NCBI RefSeq assembly: GCF_005047655.1
Contig: NZ_SUKF01000001.1
Coordinates: 484,745 to 548,744 of the forward strand
Direction: 5' to 3'
Source: Sinimarinibacterium arenosum
GTDB taxonomy: Bacteria > Pseudomonadota > Gammaproteobacteria > Nevskiales > Nevskiaceae
Length of the DNA: 64,000 nucleotides
Part shown: positions 12,229 to 44,860 of the stretch, piece after piece
Position numbering within the stretch: the first letter of the stretch is position 1
How the letters are laid out: every line of letters begins with the position of its first letter
The notes under the pieces: model-generated
The model's database searches: none
Seen by the model: the letters and a program-made list of their open reading frames with translations, nothing else
Told to the model about the DNA's origin: nothing
Translations under genes and position numbers: made by a program

Positions 12229-13781
12229 CAGGCGGCCCTCCGTTTGCGCGCGCTGCGCGGTGTCTTGGCGACGGCCGGTGCGGTCTGGCTTTGTGCCTGC
12301 GACTGGGTGTTGACGGTCAATACTTCCGGCTCGCCGTCGAGATCGACGATCCAGGTGTCCTTGGCGCCGCCGCCCTGTGAGCTGTTGACCACCAGCGAGC
12401 CTTTGGTCATCGCCACGCGGGTCAGGCCGCCCGTCGTGACGTAGACCGAGTCGCCGCGCGACAGGATGAAGGGGCGCAGGTCCAGATGCCGCGGCTCGAT
12501 GGCGCCGTCGGCCAGAGTGGGCGCAGTTGAGAGCGAGAGTGTGGGCTGAGCCATGTAATTGCGCGGGTTGGCCTGGATCAGGTCGGCAAATTTTTCACGT
12601 TCCTTCTTGCTCGCACGCGGTCCAATCATCATGCCGTAGCCGCCCGACTCGTTGGCGGGTTTGACCACCAACTTGTCGAGATTGGCCAGCACATGATCGC
12701 GGTCCCGTTTGCGCATGCACAGATAACTCGGCACGTTGGGCAGGATCGCGTCTTCCCCCAGGTAATAACGGATCATCTCCGGGACGAAGGCGTAGACCAC
12801 CTTGTCGTCGGCGACGCCGGCGCCAGGCGCATTGACCAAAGCGACCTTGTTCTTCAGCCAGGCGCGCATCAGTCCGGCAACGCCGAGGATGGAGTCCTTG
12901 TGGAAGACCTCGGGATCGAGGAACAGGTCGTCGATGCGGCGATAAATCACGTCGACCCGCTTAGGGCCATAGATCGTGCGCATATAGACGATATCGTCAT
13001 CGCCGACGAATAGATCCGAACCCTGCACCAGCTCGATGCCCATCTGCTGTGCCAGCCAGGAGTGCTCGAAGTACGCTGAGTTGAAGATGCCGGGGGTCAG
13101 CAGCACGATGCTCGGGCGATTGCCAGGGCGCGGCGACATTGCGGCTAGCATGTCGTAAAGCTGAGCCGGGTAATCGTCGACCGGCAGGATCGTGCTGTTC
13201 TGAAACAGCTCGGGGAATACGCGCTTGGTTACCAGCCGGTTTTCCACCATGTAGCTGACGCCGGACGGTACGCGCAGATTGTCTTCAAGCACGTACAGGG
13301 TGCCGTCGCCATCGCGCACCAGATCGCTGCCGCAGATGTGGGCCCAAACACCGTTGCGGGGTTTCATGCCGATGCACTGCTTTCTGAAATTGGCCGATTC
13401 CTTCAGCAGGCTTCCCGGAAAAACCTTGTCGCGGACAATCTTCTGCGGGCCGTAAATATCCTGAATGAAATGATTCAGGGCCGTCGCGCGCTGCTGCAAT
13501 CCACGCTCGGTACGTTCCCATTCCGCCCGGCCAATGGTGCGTGGAATGATGTCGAACGGCCACGAACGATCGACGTTGCGGCCTTCGGAGTAGACCGTAA
13601 ACGTGACGCCCATGATCTTGATCGCCAGTTCGGCAGCGATGCGCCGCTCGGATAGTTCGGAAGCGGACATCTGTGCCAGATGTTCCACCAGCGTCCGTGC
13701 GGCCGGACGTGCAATTCCAGGGGCCTCGAACAGCTCGTCGAAATACCCTTTGCAGCGATACTGATGCCAGTCAATGGCCAT
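12228..13781 (-). CDS. Circularly permuted type 2 ATP-grasp enzyme
   Basis: 517 residues of the circularly permuted ATP-grasp type 2 family, predicted amidoligase-like enzymes that would join a carboxylate to an amine using ATP. Visible family blocks are DELFEAPGIARP at the N-terminus, the catalytic core around KRVDVIYRRIDDLFLDP and LVNAPGAGVADDKVVYAFVPEMI, and the nucleotide-binding stretch LVVKPANESGGYGM. The C-terminus ends in a basic Ala/Arg tail. Start 13781 (MAIDWHQYRCKG) fits the family; the longer frame to 13856 adds 25 non-conserved residues. Coupled by TGATG to the alpha-E gene. Confidence 0.9.
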   Translation of the reverse strand: MAIDWHQYRCKGYFDELFEAPGIARPAARTLVEHLAQMSASELSERRIAAELAIKIMGVTFTVYSEGRNVDRSWPFDIIPRTIGRAEWERTERGLQQRATALNHFIQDIYGPQKIVRDKVFPGSLLKESANFRKQCIGMKPRNGVWAHICGSDLVRDGDGTLYVLEDNLRVPSGVSYMVENRLVTKRVFPELFQNSTILPVDDYPAQLYDMLAAMSPRPGNRPSIVLLTPGIFNSAYFEHSWLAQQMGIELVQGSDLFVGDDDIVYMRTIYGPKRVDVIYRRIDDLFLDPEVFHKDSILGVAGLMRAWLKNKVALVNAPGAGVADDKVVYAFVPEMIRYYLGEDAILPNVPSYLCMRKRDRDHVLANLDKLVVKPANESGGYGMMIGPRASKKEREKFADLIQANPRNYMAQPTLSLSTAPTLADGAIEPRHLDLRPFILSRGDSVYVTTGGLTRVAMTKGSLVVNSSQGGGAKDTWIVDLDGEPEVLTVNTQSQAQSQTAPAVAKTPRSARKRRAA

Positions 13782-13953
13782 GGTTGCGGGCCTTTTTTCC
13801 CGATCTCGGTGGTCTTGTAAAACAGCGCGAAGCAAAACACGCGCCATGCGCGACAAGCTGACAGCACGCTACCACCAAAGTGGCAGGGTTGAAGTGCGAT
13901 TCACGAGCAATGGGTCAAAAGGATGTACAATCACACATCCACAAAACACCAAC

Positions 13954-14676
13954 ATGACGCCGAAAAAAGCGCTTGAATTCAAGGGTCGCATGCTGTCACT
14001 GACACGTGCGCGCATCCTTGACCCCGACGTCGCCGCGATCGGTGCACAGCTCCAGGATTTTGCGCGCCAGATGCCGCAGGCCGTGCGCGGCATGCCGGTG
14101 GTGCTGGAGTCCGAATACGCCTGCGAGCTGGGCGGCATTCTCGCCGCAATGCGCGAGGTCGGCATGCAGCCGATCGGTGTCGCCGACGGTCCGTTGGCCG
14201 AAGCGGCGAAAAGCTGGGGACTGGCCGTGGTGCCTGCAGAGTCCGGTGGACGCGGCAAGCGGGGTGCCGCAGCCGCTGCAGCCGCCGAAGCGACGGTTGT
14301 GGAGCCGGTGGCGGCAGTCGCCGTGCGCAAGCCGACGCGGATCATCACAGAGCCGGTGCGCTCCGGGCAGCAGATCTATGCCACCGATGGAGACCTGATC
14401 GTGTTGAGCATGGTCGGCGCTGGTGCCGAGGTGATCGCCGACGGATGTGTCCACGTCTACGGCCATCTGCGCGGCCGCGCGATCGCCGGCGCCCGGGGTG
14501 ACACCACCGCGCGCGTGTTTTGCAGCAAGCTGGAAGCTGATCTGGTCGCCGTGGCCGGCGTCTATGCCGTGGCCGAGCAGATGCAGGGCGAATTGCGTGG
14601 CAAGGCCGCGCAGGTTCTTCTGGTCGATGGCAAACTGAGAATTGAGCGGCTGCCGGGCTCGGGCCCGCAGCAGTAA
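13954..14676 (+). CDS. minC: Septum site-determining protein MinC
   Basis: 240-residue MinC, the FtsZ-assembly inhibitor recruited to the membrane by MinD so that division happens at mid-cell. The N-terminal FtsZ-acting domain covers about residues 1-100 (ALEFKGRMLSLTRARILD). An Ala/Val-rich linker follows (AAAAAAAEATVVEPVAAVAV), then the C-terminal beta-helix domain that binds MinD (RSGQQIYATDGDLIVLSMVGAGAEVIADGCVHVYGHLRGRA, in the family order). I start at ATG 13954 because it gives the usual length; the frame stays open upstream into the divergent promoter region. First gene of minCDE. Confidence 0.93.
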   Translation: MTPKKALEFKGRMLSLTRARILDPDVAAIGAQLQDFARQMPQAVRGMPVVLESEYACELGGILAAMREVGMQPIGVADGPLAEAAKSWGLAVVPAESGGRGKRGAAAAAAAEATVVEPVAAVAVRKPTRIITEPVRSGQQIYATDGDLIVLSMVGAGAEVIADGCVHVYGHLRGRAIAGARGDTTARVFCSKLEADLVAVAGVYAVAEQMQGELRGKAAQVLLVDGKLRIERLPGSGPQQ

Positions 14677-29028: not shown

Positions 29029-29841
29029 TTGGCCAAGGCCAAGCCCAAGCCCACAAATAATCCGAAGTTGAAGCTGCTGGGCTTCAACAATCTGACGAAG
29101 TCGCTGTCGTTCAATATCTATGACATCTGCTATGCGCGCTCGCGGGAGCACCAGCAGGAGTACATCGAGTACATCGACGAGGCTTACAACGCCGAGCGCC
29201 TGACCGCGATCCTGACGGAAGTGGCCCGTATCATCGGCGCCAACATCCTCAACGTTGCGCGCCAGGATTACGATCCGCAGGGCGCCTCGGTGACGATGCT
29301 GATCTCGGAAGGTCATCTCGATGGCCTGCCGACGCCGAAGCCGACGAAGAAGAAGGAATCGGTGGTTGCGCACCTCGACAAGTCGCACATCACGGTCCAC
29401 ACCTATCCGGAAACGCACCCCGATGCGGGAATTTCGACGTTCCGTGCGGACATCGATGTCTCCACCTGCGGCAAGATTTCGCCGCTGAACGCCTTGAACT
29501 ATCTGATCAAGTCATTCGAGTCGGACATTGTGGTGATGGACTATCGCGTGCGTGGCTTCACCCGCAATGTACGCGGCATGAAGCACTTCATCGATCATTC
29601 GGTCGAGTCGATCCAGGATTTCGTTTCGGCGGACTTCAAGGATCGGTATCAGATGATCGACGTCAACGTCTATCAGGAGTTCATGTTCCACACCAAGATG
29701 CGCCTGAAGGAACTGGACCTGGATACCTACCTGTTCGGTGAAGGTGCGTCCGAGCTGCCGCCGCGAGAGGCCAAGAAGATTCGGGAGCGCGTCAACCGCG
29801 AGATTCTCGAGATCTATTACGGCAAGAACATGCAGGGATAG
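29029..29841 (+). CDS. speD: S-adenosylmethionine decarboxylase proenzyme (E. coli type)
   Basis: 270 residues from the TTG at 29029. Pyruvoyl enzyme making decarboxylated AdoMet for spermidine synthesis. It matches E. coli SpeD strongly: [41 protein letters not shown], the self-cleavage site [12 protein letters not shown] (Ser119 becomes the pyruvoyl group), [20 protein letters not shown], and [22 protein letters not shown] 29029 has GGAG seven bases upstream; ATG 29005 or 28984 are alternatives with poorer sites. Speculative: the first codons encode a short Lys/Pro-rich leader before the conserved core. Confidence 0.9.
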
Positions 29842-39291: not shown

Positions 39292-39523
39292 CGCAGGTCT
39301 CCTCGTCTGCGTCTTCATGCAGCGATGCTCCTCCCGTAATCCGGGTGTCACCATGCGCGAAACGGAAGCCAAGTTGATCGAAACGGACATCCGGGCGCCA
39401 TCCGCATCGACGCAATGATCTGGATCAATCAGTGACGATGTGCGGAGCTGCGTCAGTGCCGCGGCGCGCTTGCCTATACTCGGATTTCAGACACTGGGCG
39501 GAGCGGGGGCAGGTAGCAACACC

Positions 39524-39994
39524 ATGAAGATTCATCTGATCGCCGTCGGCACGCGGATGCCGGCCTGGGTGGAGACCGGCTACAAGGAGTACGCCGGGCG
39601 TCTGCCGCACGAATGCCGGCTGGAGCTGATCGAGATTGCGCCGGCGCAACGCGGCAAGAACACCGACATCGCCCGCGCCAAGCAGCAGGAAGGCGAGAAG
39701 ATCCTGAAAGCGCTACCGCGTGACAGCTTCGTCATCGCGCTGGACGAACACGGCCAGCAGCTCGACAGCACGCAGTGGGCGGGTGAACTGCAGAACTGGA
39801 TGCAGTCGGGGCGCGATACCTGTCTGCTGATCGGCGGCCCGGACGGTCACTCTGCAGAAGTGCTGCAGCGGGCCGATCGCAAGTGGGCGCTATCGAAGCT
39901 CACGCTGCCGCACGCGCTGGTGCGCGTGTTCGTCGCCGAGCAGTTGTTTCGCGCGTGGAGTCTGCTGGCAAATCATCCGTATCACAGGGCGTAA
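39524..39994 (+). CDS. rlmH: 23S rRNA pseudouridine-1915 N3-methyltransferase RlmH
   Basis: 156-residue SPOUT methyltransferase. MKIHLIAVGTRMPAWVETGYKEYA opens the protein; LIGGPDGHS is the AdoMet knot motif and SLLANHPYHRA is the conserved C-terminus. It modifies pseudouridine 1915 in helix 69 of 23S rRNA. In most relatives it follows rsfS directly; here a convergent three-gene minus-strand block separates the two. An odd palindrome, CACAG-A-CTGTG (39997-40007), lies immediately after the stop. Confidence 0.95.
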   Translation: MKIHLIAVGTRMPAWVETGYKEYAGRLPHECRLELIEIAPAQRGKNTDIARAKQQEGEKILKALPRDSFVIALDEHGQQLDSTQWAGELQNWMQSGRDTCLLIGGPDGHSAEVLQRADRKWALSKLTLPHALVRVFVAEQLFRAWSLLANHPYHRA

Positions 39995-40009
39995 GTCACA
40001 GACTGTGTT

Positions 40010-40612
40010 TCACGAGTTGCGTGGTTCGGGATGAAGATAACCATTGGCCATATATACTCGGCGCCTTTTCCGAGAAGGAAGCATGTCGACGTAGAAGTAC
40101 TGCATTGCTCTGGTCGGAATTGATTTGGCAACGCGACAGTCGATGTACCAATCTGCGCAAAGCTTCTTTCTTCTAGCGCGTTCCTCCACGCGATAGCAAT
40201 TTCCCATTGCATAGCTTGAGGCTTTAATTACAACACATCTTGCATGCTCATCTGCCGAATTTTCTGACGATGAGTCGTGGAGGTTCTTATCTGGAAACGT
40301 GCGCCCCTTGATACAGATTGCATAGGTTCGTCCAACCTTCAGATCGATTTTCTTCTTCAGTGCGGATATCTCATTTAGCGCACTTCGAGATGTCTGAGTG
40401 GACCTGTCCAAATGCGCAAGAAGCAAGGCTGAATCGTTCCAGCAGTACGCGTGAGAATGTAAGCGCATGCTCACCGCCATTTCTCTCTGCACTAAAGAAT
40501 GCAGCTTTCGCATCAGTGTCGTAGCACGAGCATTGCCCTCTTCGGCAATGCTTTTTGTATCGATAAGGTCGATCAGTGTGACGAGGCTATCCTTCCAGAT
40601 TCCGTTCGTCAT
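40010..40612 (-). CDS. Unknown protein with nucleotidyl-cyclase-like pattern
   Basis: 200 residues, no family I can name with certainty. The order of features resembles a class III nucleotidyl cyclase: VTLIDLID (Asp15 at the FxDI position), helix TTLMRKLHSLVQREM, strand AYCWNDSALLLA (Asp60 at the GD position). The 45-residue Asp-Asp spacing is close to the 44 in mycobacterial Rv1625c. Later come helix ALNEISALKKKI and GNCYRVEERARRKK where cyclases have an N-x3-R helix; the Asn/Arg spacing is off by one. Position 56, where adenylate cyclases carry the adenine-selecting Lys, is Tyr. A highly basic C-terminus (SRKRRRVY) follows. It is 94 bases downstream of the membrane-protein gene. Cyclase identity is inference. 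Confidence 0.6.
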   Translation of the reverse strand: MTNGIWKDSLVTLIDLIDTKSIAEEGNARATTLMRKLHSLVQREMAVSMRLHSHAYCWNDSALLLAHLDRSTQTSRSALNEISALKKKIDLKVGRTYAICIKGRTFPDKNLHDSSSENSADEHARCVVIKASSYAMGNCYRVEERARRKKLCADWYIDCRVAKSIPTRAMQYFYVDMLPSRKRRRVYMANGYLHPEPRNS

Positions 40613-40706
40613 GGGCAGTAACTAAGGATGTGAATTGTCCGGAGGGAGTTCTGCTAAAGCTTATATTCGGACGGCACAAGAACAGTTTAGCGGGGTGGGG
40701 CGTCGG

Positions 40707-41186
40707 TTAGACACGAAGTAAAGAAATGGCTGCTGTAACAATGCCGTTCAGGAACATTCCAGCAATTACCGCCAAGACGATGTAAAGCCATCCTCTCAGT
40801 GTTCCTAACATTGCCCCGTCACTGGCATAGCTAGCCATTTCGGAGGCTCGAACGCTGAAGATCAACACGATAGCGAAAATTGCGGCGATTACTGAGGAGA
40901 TCAGCAGAGGAATAAACGCTGCGATCTCTTGCCCAACTGATATCCATTTTCCGAAAGCAATCAGCGCTTCGAGAAGTAGCATTGATGCGGAAATAAGGAA
41001 GAATAGACGAGCTTCGTAGAAGCGCCGACGTGTTTTGGTTAGACAGGCAGCTGCAACGACTGTCAGACCTGCAAAGGACCAAATGATTGCGGGATTTTCT
41101 CCCTGTTCGATCAAGCCTTGGGAAGCACCGAACTGCAGAAATGCAGAAACCCACGCTGATAAGAGTCCAATTCTTCTAGTCGTCAT
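40707..41186 (-). CDS. Hypothetical multi-pass membrane protein
   Basis: 159 residues with four to five predicted transmembrane helices: LLSAWVSAFLQFGASQGLI; PAIIWSFAGLTVVAAACLT; ARLFFLISASMLLLEALIAF; IAAFIPLLISSVIAAIFAIV; and LRGWLYIVLAVIAGMFLNGI. Short loops only; no nucleotide-binding domain, signal peptide or enzymatic motif. First gene of the islet operon, followed by the cyclase-like gene on the same strand. If that neighbour makes a signal nucleotide, this would be the candidate membrane effector, but nothing in its own sequence shows that. Confidence 0.65.
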   Translation of the reverse strand: MTTRRIGLLSAWVSAFLQFGASQGLIEQGENPAIIWSFAGLTVVAAACLTKTRRRFYEARLFFLISASMLLLEALIAFGKWISVGQEIAAFIPLLISSVIAAIFAIVLIFSVRASEMASYASDGAMLGTLRGWLYIVLAVIAGMFLNGIVTAAISLLRV

Positions 41187-41221
41187 ATATCTGGTCTCCC
41201 TGGGTGACTTTTTTTGAGCAA

Positions 41222-41243
41222 GAACCTTTAGTGATTAAGGTTC
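41222..41243. other. Hairpin at the islet/nnrU boundary
   Basis: GAACCTT (41222-41228) and AAGGTTC (41237-41243), perfect 7-bp arms with an 8-base loop, lie 18 bases beyond the nnrU stop. In the minus direction the stem is followed by a run of A rather than T, so it is not a standard terminator for nnrU. Confidence 0.35.
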
Positions 41244-41260
41244 CACGCCCATATTATTTT

Positions 41261-41824
41261 CTATTTCATCAACGGCATCCCCGAAAAGTACGGATGCCCC
41301 CAGACCAGCGCGCCGGTCAGCACCAGACCAATGATCGCGGCGATGGCGGTCTTCAGTGCACCGACCGGTGCCGGCTTTTTCCATTCCGGGTTGCCGCGGT
41401 TGATGAAGATGACTTCCAGCACGCCCCAGGCGAGCAGTCCGGCGAACAGGATCACCGAGCGCATTTCACCGTTGGACAGCAGGTGCGCGAAGGCCCACAG
41501 CTTGACGCCGGTCAGCTGCGGGTGACGGATGAACTGCTTGATGTCGGTGGGTGCACGCGCGCTGATGAACAGGATCACCGCGAACGGCATCAACAGCATG
41601 GTGACGTGGCGCATCCACACTGGCGGATTCCACAGCGCGGTCGGCGGCGTGGACTTCCAGCCCATCACGATCAGGACCAGCGAGCCAATGATCAGTAATG
41701 CGAACAGGCCTTTGTACGGCCACTCGCCAATGCTGGCGATCACGCCCGCGCGAACGTTCGGCGTCACGGCCTTGCTCAGGTGAACAACGGCCCACAGCAA
41801 TAGACCCAGTGTCAGCAGCAGCAT
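41261..41824 (-). CDS. NnrU family membrane protein
   Basis: 187 residues, about five to six transmembrane helices, with conserved His in LLLWAVVHLSKAVTP, VWMRHVTMLLMPF, KQFIRHPQLTGVKLWAFAHLLSNG. NnrU was described near nitric-oxide reductase genes, and the plant relative Z-ISO is a haem-dependent carotene isomerase, so haem binding by the His is possible. No nitrogen-oxide genes are near here. It lies 133 bases downstream of the permease gene and may be a separate unit. Confidence 0.85.
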   Translation of the reverse strand: MLLLTLGLLLWAVVHLSKAVTPNVRAGVIASIGEWPYKGLFALLIIGSLVLIVMGWKSTPPTALWNPPVWMRHVTMLLMPFAVILFISARAPTDIKQFIRHPQLTGVKLWAFAHLLSNGEMRSVILFAGLLAWGVLEVIFINRGNPEWKKPAPVGALKTAIAAIIGLVLTGALVWGHPYFSGMPLMK

Positions 41825-41957
41825 CTCGATACCCCCTGTCGTTCTGATGCGTGGAGCTTAGCGCGCCGTGGGGCGTCCTGCGACTGTGCGCGATCTGGAG
41901 TCGGCCTGCGCCGCAGGCCGACTCGATCCGAAAGACACGAAGGGGATTGGGCGAGGA

Positions 41958-43654: not shown

Positions 43655-44860
43655 TTAGAACTGGTGCGCCGGATGGGCGCCCATGCTGACGATGTACTGC
43701 ACGATGAACTGGTTGTCCGCGTCCTCGCCGTCCGGCCGCGATTCGTCGCGGTTGTACTGGATACGGAAGCGCGAGAACTCGCTGTTGGAGAAGTCGACCA
43801 TTGCCGAGTAGCGCTGCGGGGTGCTGGCGTCGTCGGCCAGCAACGCCAGCGAGGTGTCCGCGACGGGATTGGCCACGCTGTTGCTGGCGCTCAGGCGGTC
43901 GTAGCGCAGACCCACGCGCCAGCGCGGCATGAACTGGTAGACGCCCTGCACGTACCAGCCGAACTGGTCGCCGTCGTAGGCGCTGGTGTCGCCGCTGCCG
44001 TCCGGGTCGTAGACCACGGTGCCCTTTTCGCTGCGGCGCATCGCCTCGGCCTGGAGCACCAGATTGCGCACCAGCGGATTGCCGTCCGGCGCCCATTTGT
44101 AGACCAGATCGATGCCGTCGATGCGGCTGTCACCGGTAAAGCCGGTTTCGACGTCCTCACCGCTGCGACGGTCGACGGCATTGCCGTCGAAGTGCCACAA
44201 GCCGACGCGCCAGGAGCCGCCGCTGCCGACGTCACCACCGATGTGGGTGAACGCGGTCCAGGCTTCGATGCCGTCGCGCTGGTCGCCGCCCGCGGGGAAG
44301 CCGTCGCCGCGCAGCAGCTCGGTGCCGAATTCGAGGAATACATCGGTCGGGGCCAGCCAGCGCACCTGCGCACCGTCGTCGCCGAGCTGGTTGGCCAGGA
44401 AGGTGCGATACACCAGTGGCGCATCGGCAAATTCCCAGGCATGCGGATGCTGGTGGTTCTGGTAGCCGACGTCCGAATAGAAACGGCCGAGTTTCACCGC
44501 CAGGCCGTAGGGCAGGGACAGCGTGTTGATGTACGCCTCTTCGACCGCCACCACGGTTTCGCCACCTTCGTTCTCGAAGGCGACCGTGGCCCAGCCATGA
44601 AAGCGGTCGTCAATGTTGGATTCCATCACCAGTTCGCTTTCGCCCAGCGAGAAGCCGCTGGTCTTGAACTCGGTTTCGGGGCCGAGCACCACGCCGGGCA
44701 TCTCGGCTTCGGCGTCGTTGCTGTAGTGGGCGTACTGCCCGCTGAGAATCAGGCTGATCTTGGGGTTGAAGACGTTGCCGGTTGCGGCCTGCGCCGGGAC
44801 ACACAGCGGCGCGAACACGGCAAGCGCCGCGCCACGCGCAAGAATGGATATGCGATCCAT
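43655..44860 (-). CDS. Outer-membrane porin-like protein of the metal-uptake set
   Basis: 401 residues: signal peptide (cleavage near AQA at ~25), then alternating beta strands such as KISLILSGQYAHYSND, RWRVGLRYDRL, RFRIQYNRDESRP, ending VQYIVSMGAHPAHQF with C-terminal Phe, the usual outer-membrane signal. A His cluster (GYQNHQHPHAWEF) sits in a predicted loop and could bind metal. Its place directly upstream of znuA-like and znuB-like genes suggests an outer-membrane zinc entry or capture protein; the specificity is inferred from context. Confidence 0.78.
   Translation of the reverse strand: MDRISILARGAALAVFAPLCVPAQAATGNVFNPKISLILSGQYAHYSNDAEAEMPGVVLGPETEFKTSGFSLGESELVMESNIDDRFHGWATVAFENEGGETVVAVEEAYINTLSLPYGLAVKLGRFYSDVGYQNHQHPHAWEFADAPLVYRTFLANQLGDDGAQVRWLAPTDVFLEFGTELLRGDGFPAGGDQRDGIEAWTAFTHIGGDVGSGGSWRVGLWHFDGNAVDRRSGEDVETGFTGDSRIDGIDLVYKWAPDGNPLVRNLVLQAEAMRRSEKGTVVYDPDGSGDTSAYDGDQFGWYVQGVYQFMPRWRVGLRYDRLSASNSVANPVADTSLALLADDASTPQRYSAMVDFSNSEFSRFRIQYNRDESRPDGEDADNQFIVQYIVSMGAHPAHQF

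Follow-up and report, generated by a model that had tools for sequence, protein, structure and literature searches.

A low-GC two-gene islet beside rlmH in Sinimarinibacterium arenosum: a candidate divergent class III cyclase fold and a small membrane protein

Class III nucleotidyl cyclases, which include Rv1625c and are modelled in Pfam as Guanylate_cyc (PF00211), make cyclic NMPs as dimers. They have transition-state Asn and Arg residues spaced N-x3-R and carry their usual base-selecting residues near the second of two metal-binding aspartates, which lie on β1 and on the β2–β3 hairpin. The anti-phage system Pycsar combines a PycC cyclase, of clades A–E, with a PycTM or PycTIR effector, and PycTM has a cyclic-nucleotide-binding domain. 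Here we analyse a 64,000-nucleotide stretch of Sinimarinibacterium arenosum contig NZ_SUKF01000001.1 (the window), in which a guanine–cytosine (GC)-poor islet next to rlmH encodes two proteins, P0001 and P0002. We tentatively read the islet as a horizontally acquired two-gene unit that joins a divergent class III cyclase-fold protein, P0001, to a membrane partner, P0002; sequence comparison makes the fold itself fairly probable.

Excerpts of PMC11224242 describe a cyclic-nucleotide-binding domain in PycTIR and place the PycC metal residues at Asp102 and Asp146 (EaPycC) and at Asp62 and Asp106 (AnPycC), with base-selecting positions at −2 of the first aspartate and at −4/−2 (EaPycC) or −2/+3 (AnPycC) of the second. 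In Panoptes, as given in excerpts of PMC12657218, the mCpol protein OptS accompanies the S-2TMβ membrane protein OptE, which is restrained by the nucleotide product; Asp6 and Asp57 are putative active-site residues of KpOptS. Divergent soluble bacterial relatives of class III enzymes were described earlier as DUF2652 nucleotide cyclase-like proteins (PMC4886424, excerpt).

Motifs and predicted fold of P0001

An earlier note on this DNA had likened P0001 to class III cyclases. The residues that it named are in place: Asp15 and Asp60 lie 45 residues apart, Tyr56 is at Asp60 −4, and GNCYRVEE spans residues 137–144. The note took this last segment for the N-x3-R helix. Its Arg141 stands before V-E, much as the arginine of R-L-E does in solved class III cyclases, but the spacing is N-x2-R, so that Asn138 would be one residue off if Arg141 is aligned to the RLE arginine. 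P0001 also shares with class III cyclases its Asp–Asp spacing and predicted element order, while differing from them in having Tyr56 and Trp58 near Asp60 rather than the usual base-selecting residues. It has no hydrophobic segment (Kyte–Doolittle). The aspartates of PycC are 44 residues apart (PMC11224242, excerpt), and the PycC rule, applied by spacing alone, would make Leu13, Tyr56, Trp58 and Leu63 the candidate base-selecting residues of P0001.

FIDILGFK and FSDSIVIS motifs recur in many cyclase-like proteins of divergent sequence. Scanning IMG/VR viral contigs for the pattern F-[hydrophobic]-D-I-[L/F]-G-F-K returned 39 stretches, of which 21 (loci within L044–L080; 19 distinct) were taken as members of a family that we here name DILGFK. 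A profile of 14 of the 19 distinct members (alignment A3) matched four PDB sequences at E-values up to 10, all named class III cyclases, with the conserved blocks in register in the two alignments shown; of 14 members compared with PF00211, two gave a match (best E 0.0019). Although none of these matches is strong when taken singly, DILGFK is on their evidence probably class III cyclase-like. PADLOC matched none of the three DILGFK proteins scanned. The family, found on viral contigs, would form a second, better-populated cyclase-like group and may merit separate study.

In an unguided MAFFT alignment, Asp15, Lys20, Asp60 and Gly103 of P0001 fall on columns that do not vary across the 19 sequences; A3 has eight invariant columns, and Asp, Lys, Asp and Gly make up four of them. 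Identity is only 10–17%, however; DILGFK proteins have G-F before the lysine where P0001 has D-T, and by eye most have no arginine aligned with Arg141. An ordered scan for five conserved DILGFK blocks scored P0001 at 13.9, the blocks falling in order on the motifs of the earlier note. This score was reached by 1 of 3000, 0 of 12,000 and 0 of 1500 shuffles in three runs and by 1 of 1065 open reading frame (ORF) windows, numbers that overstate independence because DILGFK was chosen after the likeness had been seen. On the same scan, z was 4.6 for P0001; of two class III cyclases with solved structures, one gave 7.2 and the other 3.9, its first two blocks lying out of register. When the family was halved at random, all five block places were kept in 7 of 20 draws, and blocks 1 to 4 individually in 20, 15, 19 and 18. 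Asp15 and Asp60, the two putative metal aspartates, are thus in register with DILGFK, with predicted positions on β1 and the β2–β3 hairpin; their register to class III runs via DILGFK, itself aligned to solved cyclases.

Structure prediction bears on the proposed fold indirectly. The single-sequence model is unusable (predicted local distance difference test, pLDDT, 35.9), although its element order begins E H E E H E. For a model built with chosen relatives, class III structures were the majority, and the top, among the 50 structure matches listed. PycC structures were not among these 50, which excludes nothing. With Foldseek at an E cut-off of 1e-3, neither model matched any PDB structure, and the relatives-based one matched no viral model. 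Searched against PDB, the profile of alignment A2 (18 family rows, with L072 in and the cut L049 out, together with P0001) found 14 sequences within E 10, comprising eight adenylate/guanylate cyclases, five C1 inhibitors and one named C2-Zn1-HEHE-2.

Several results weigh against a class III assignment, the after-the-fact choice of DILGFK among them. The full DILGFK hidden Markov model (18 members, leaving out two duplicates and L072, which does not match the pattern) misses P0001 at −1 bit, with 1056 of 5000 shuffles ranking above it, and local hhalign aligned residues 1–27 only to the DILGFK profile (P 0.055). At E 10, Pfam gave P0001 no PF00211 match, its sole hit being DUF928 (E 0.1), and neither PADLOC nor PDB sequences gave any; NCBIfam and the other family libraries searched held nothing meaningful, and DUF2652 did not match. 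The class III likeness is moderate, with the Asp pair in DILGFK register; no family profile matches significantly. Under a competing reading, P0001 would be a ferredoxin-like protein of another lineage (a GGDEF/mCpol-type palm or a non-enzymatic α–β fold) whose motifs are partly coincidence. We regard this as unlikely: P0001 lacks a GG pair, and so has neither a GGDEF nor a GGDD motif, its five-block order beats nearly all shuffles and ORF controls, and class III structures lead the listed structure matches.

P0001 may be an active cyclase, which we judge somewhat less likely than not. It keeps both putative metal aspartates and would present Arg141 at the transition-state position; a P0001 homodimer would cyclise a nucleoside triphosphate, with an aromatic Tyr56/Trp58 pocket replacing the usual base-selecting residues. 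Such activity would bring into the class III fold a sequence that the library models used here miss. An alternative takes P0001 for a cyclase fold that is inactive or a binding protein, with P0002 unrelated and carried along. The displaced Asn138, the absence of usual base-selecting residues, the 94-nucleotide gap between the genes and the lack of any homologue showing the pairing all speak for that alternative and against ours, yet both aspartates and the arginine before V-E are kept and the two genes have strand and foreign composition in common, and we judge it, too, to be unlikely.

P0002 and comparison with Pycsar and Panoptes

P0002 has four hydrophobic segments (32–50, 61–79, 91–109 and 134–152; Kyte–Doolittle), outside which the longest stretches, of 31 and 24 residues, are too short for a nucleotide-binding domain; Pfam, NCBIfam and PADLOC searches at E 10 found no cyclic-nucleotide-binding domain. 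With no room for such a domain, P0002 lacks this feature of the known effectors. Its best library matches, YidC (E 0.026, NCBIfam), PHROG (E 0.028) and TMEM164 (E 0.086, Pfam), were rejected as identities, being far from cut-offs or without function.

The islet resembles Pycsar in its two-gene layout of a cyclase-like protein and, as with PycTM, a membrane protein. The Pycsar-like system suggested in the earlier note is nevertheless not supported: the PADLOC match is missing at E 10 (P0001 was neither aligned nor placed in a tree with PycC sequences), P0002 has no recognised cyclic-nucleotide-binding domain, and nine neighbouring proteins had no PADLOC match at E 0.001. Pfam (E 1e-5) gives a name to seven of the eight neighbours scanned: RlmH, ZnuA, an acetoacetate decarboxylase, two acyl-CoA dehydrogenases, an ABC-3 permease and a penicillin amidase. 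Judged by these searches, the surroundings are not a defence island. Pfam at the same cut-off does not match the 401-residue protein at 43655–44860, which adjoins the znuA-like gene.

Panoptes, too, combines a nucleotide-synthase-like protein with a small membrane protein. P0002, though, differs from OptE in its four hydrophobic segments (rather than two) and in having no recognised soluble β-domain. The membrane gene comes first in the islet and second in the Vibrio navarrensis Panoptes operon (PMC12657218, excerpt). Pfam and PADLOC gave no mCpol or S-2TMβ match for P0001 or P0002, no mCpol profile having been compared directly. Close to the DILGFK genes, a same-strand hydrophobic ORF was present at 1 of 19 loci and absent from the other 18 (several of them incomplete), so general pairing gains no support, a further point against a two-gene unit. 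Since P0002 has no recognised nucleotide-binding domain and pairing is unsupported, we file the pair under neither Pycsar nor Panoptes.

That P0001 and P0002 form a functional pair is doubtful. If they do, the membrane partner would be P0002, whose gene directly precedes that of P0001 on the same strand, and the P0001 product would either switch it on (Pycsar layout) or hold it in check (Panoptes layout); the two would make a very small signalling unit with no recognised receptor domain. An anti-phage function is improbable, and a defence role for the pair is weakly supported. We think it similarly improbable that the islet represents a minimal two-gene nucleotide-signalling system of a new kind, in which an enzyme of class III cyclase fold, missed by the Pfam, NCBIfam and PADLOC models and having an unusual aromatic base pocket, controls a four-segment membrane effector that has no separate nucleotide-binding domain.

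Relatives, composition and surroundings of the islet

Outside its own genome, no relative of P0001 turned up in the contig, phage and plasmid collections or in the sets of genomes searched, a result that says little where no positive is known. There was no convincing homologue in the genome_contigs and viral_contigs collections, in phages and plasmids by tblastn at E 0.01 (at E 10, seven phage records, best E 3, and no plasmid), or among its own genome, 58 genomes of the family, 85 of the order, 369 of the class, 269 of another family and 247 of another order; the last set is the same 247 genomes as searched with alignment A1, so that little is gained from it. The 398 phylum genomes (E 0.1) gave weak matches in 18 besides its own (best E 0.008). 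Alignment A1 found no convincing homologue in viral_contigs and one weak match each in 244 and 247 genomes (E 0.003 and 0.005). Frames were inspected by eye at five of the 22 weak loci (L006, L019, L020, L042 and L043), and none looks related. Two Y-x-W-N-D-S stretches in viral_contigs both belong to an unrelated frame, further variants gave none, and none of 16 DLLGTK-type stretches has a cyclase-like frame by eye. A literature search for the motif strings with cyclase found no paper. P0002 had no convincing homologue in plasmids, genome_contigs, phages, viral_contigs or PDB, and its one weak match in the 58 family genomes (E 9.7e-4) is a frame that reads, by eye, like a cation ATPase. Islet DNA gave one 95-base plasmid match (E 0.1), mostly within rlmH, and none in E. 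coli genomes.

Having no convincing homologue for either protein in the collections searched would suit, at the expense of our reading, an unrelated orphan insertion, such as mobile-element cargo without signalling function. This is highly unlikely, given that neither frame is broken, that both exceed the length expected by chance and that P0001 carries cyclase-like blocks. The islet edges, moreover, show no att-like repeat (a staphylococcal cassette chromosome (SCC)-like att repeat at the rlmH end included in the search), and the window has no tRNA gene.

Table 1. Coordinates of the islet and its flanks in the window
Feature	Position	Strand	Description
rlmH (SPOUT_MTase)	39524–39994	plus	left flank
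Low-GC islet	39995–41260		bounded by rlmH and nnrU-like gene
P0001 gene	40010–40612	minus	200 residues; candidate divergent class III nucleotidyl-cyclase fold
P0002/P0001 intergenic gap	40613–40706		94 nucleotides; GC 0.53
P0002 gene	40707–41186	minus	159 residues; small membrane protein, no recognised soluble domain
NnrU-family membrane protein gene	41261–41824	minus	right flank

Both islet ORFs are probably genes, by length statistics with no homologue as confirmation: when the islet was shuffled 500 times with its dinucleotides preserved, no ORF reached 200 residues (the largest had 198, and the longest per shuffle averaged 87) and no second ORF reached 159. A P0002–P0001 operon is inferred from strand and distance. 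By eye, a Shine–Dalgarno-like AGGGAG precedes the P0002 ATG, and P0001 has no clear counterpart. Over 39400–41900, a scan for σ70-like promoters found none (1.3 expected) and Rfam had no match.

The low GC of the two minus-strand ORFs, remarked on in the earlier note, is confirmed at 0.483 (P0001) and 0.479 (P0002), against 0.643 for rlmH, 0.619 for the nnrU-like gene and 0.637 for the window. The islet is the lowest-GC part of the window, the 15 lowest 1250-base segments listed (50-base steps) all overlapping it. By codon position, GC is 0.49/0.44/0.52 in P0001 and 0.52/0.46/0.46 in P0002, a flat profile compared with rlmH (0.68/0.43/0.82) and nnrU (0.59/0.43/0.84) that fits foreign origin.

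Within the genus, rlmH is present in all 11 genomes, this one included. In the other ten it is followed by 1.5 kilobases of GC-rich sequence (0.63–0.76) without the islet, in which P0001, P0002 and nnrU have no convincing match. The NnrU-family gene occurs in 5 of the 11 genomes, again including this one, at 33–72% identity in the other four; there it lies apart from rlmH in every case, so a clean empty site could not be shown. Elsewhere in the window, the next lowest-GC 600-base stretches are at 13401–14000, 2201–2800 and 29101–29700, with GC of 0.56–0.57.
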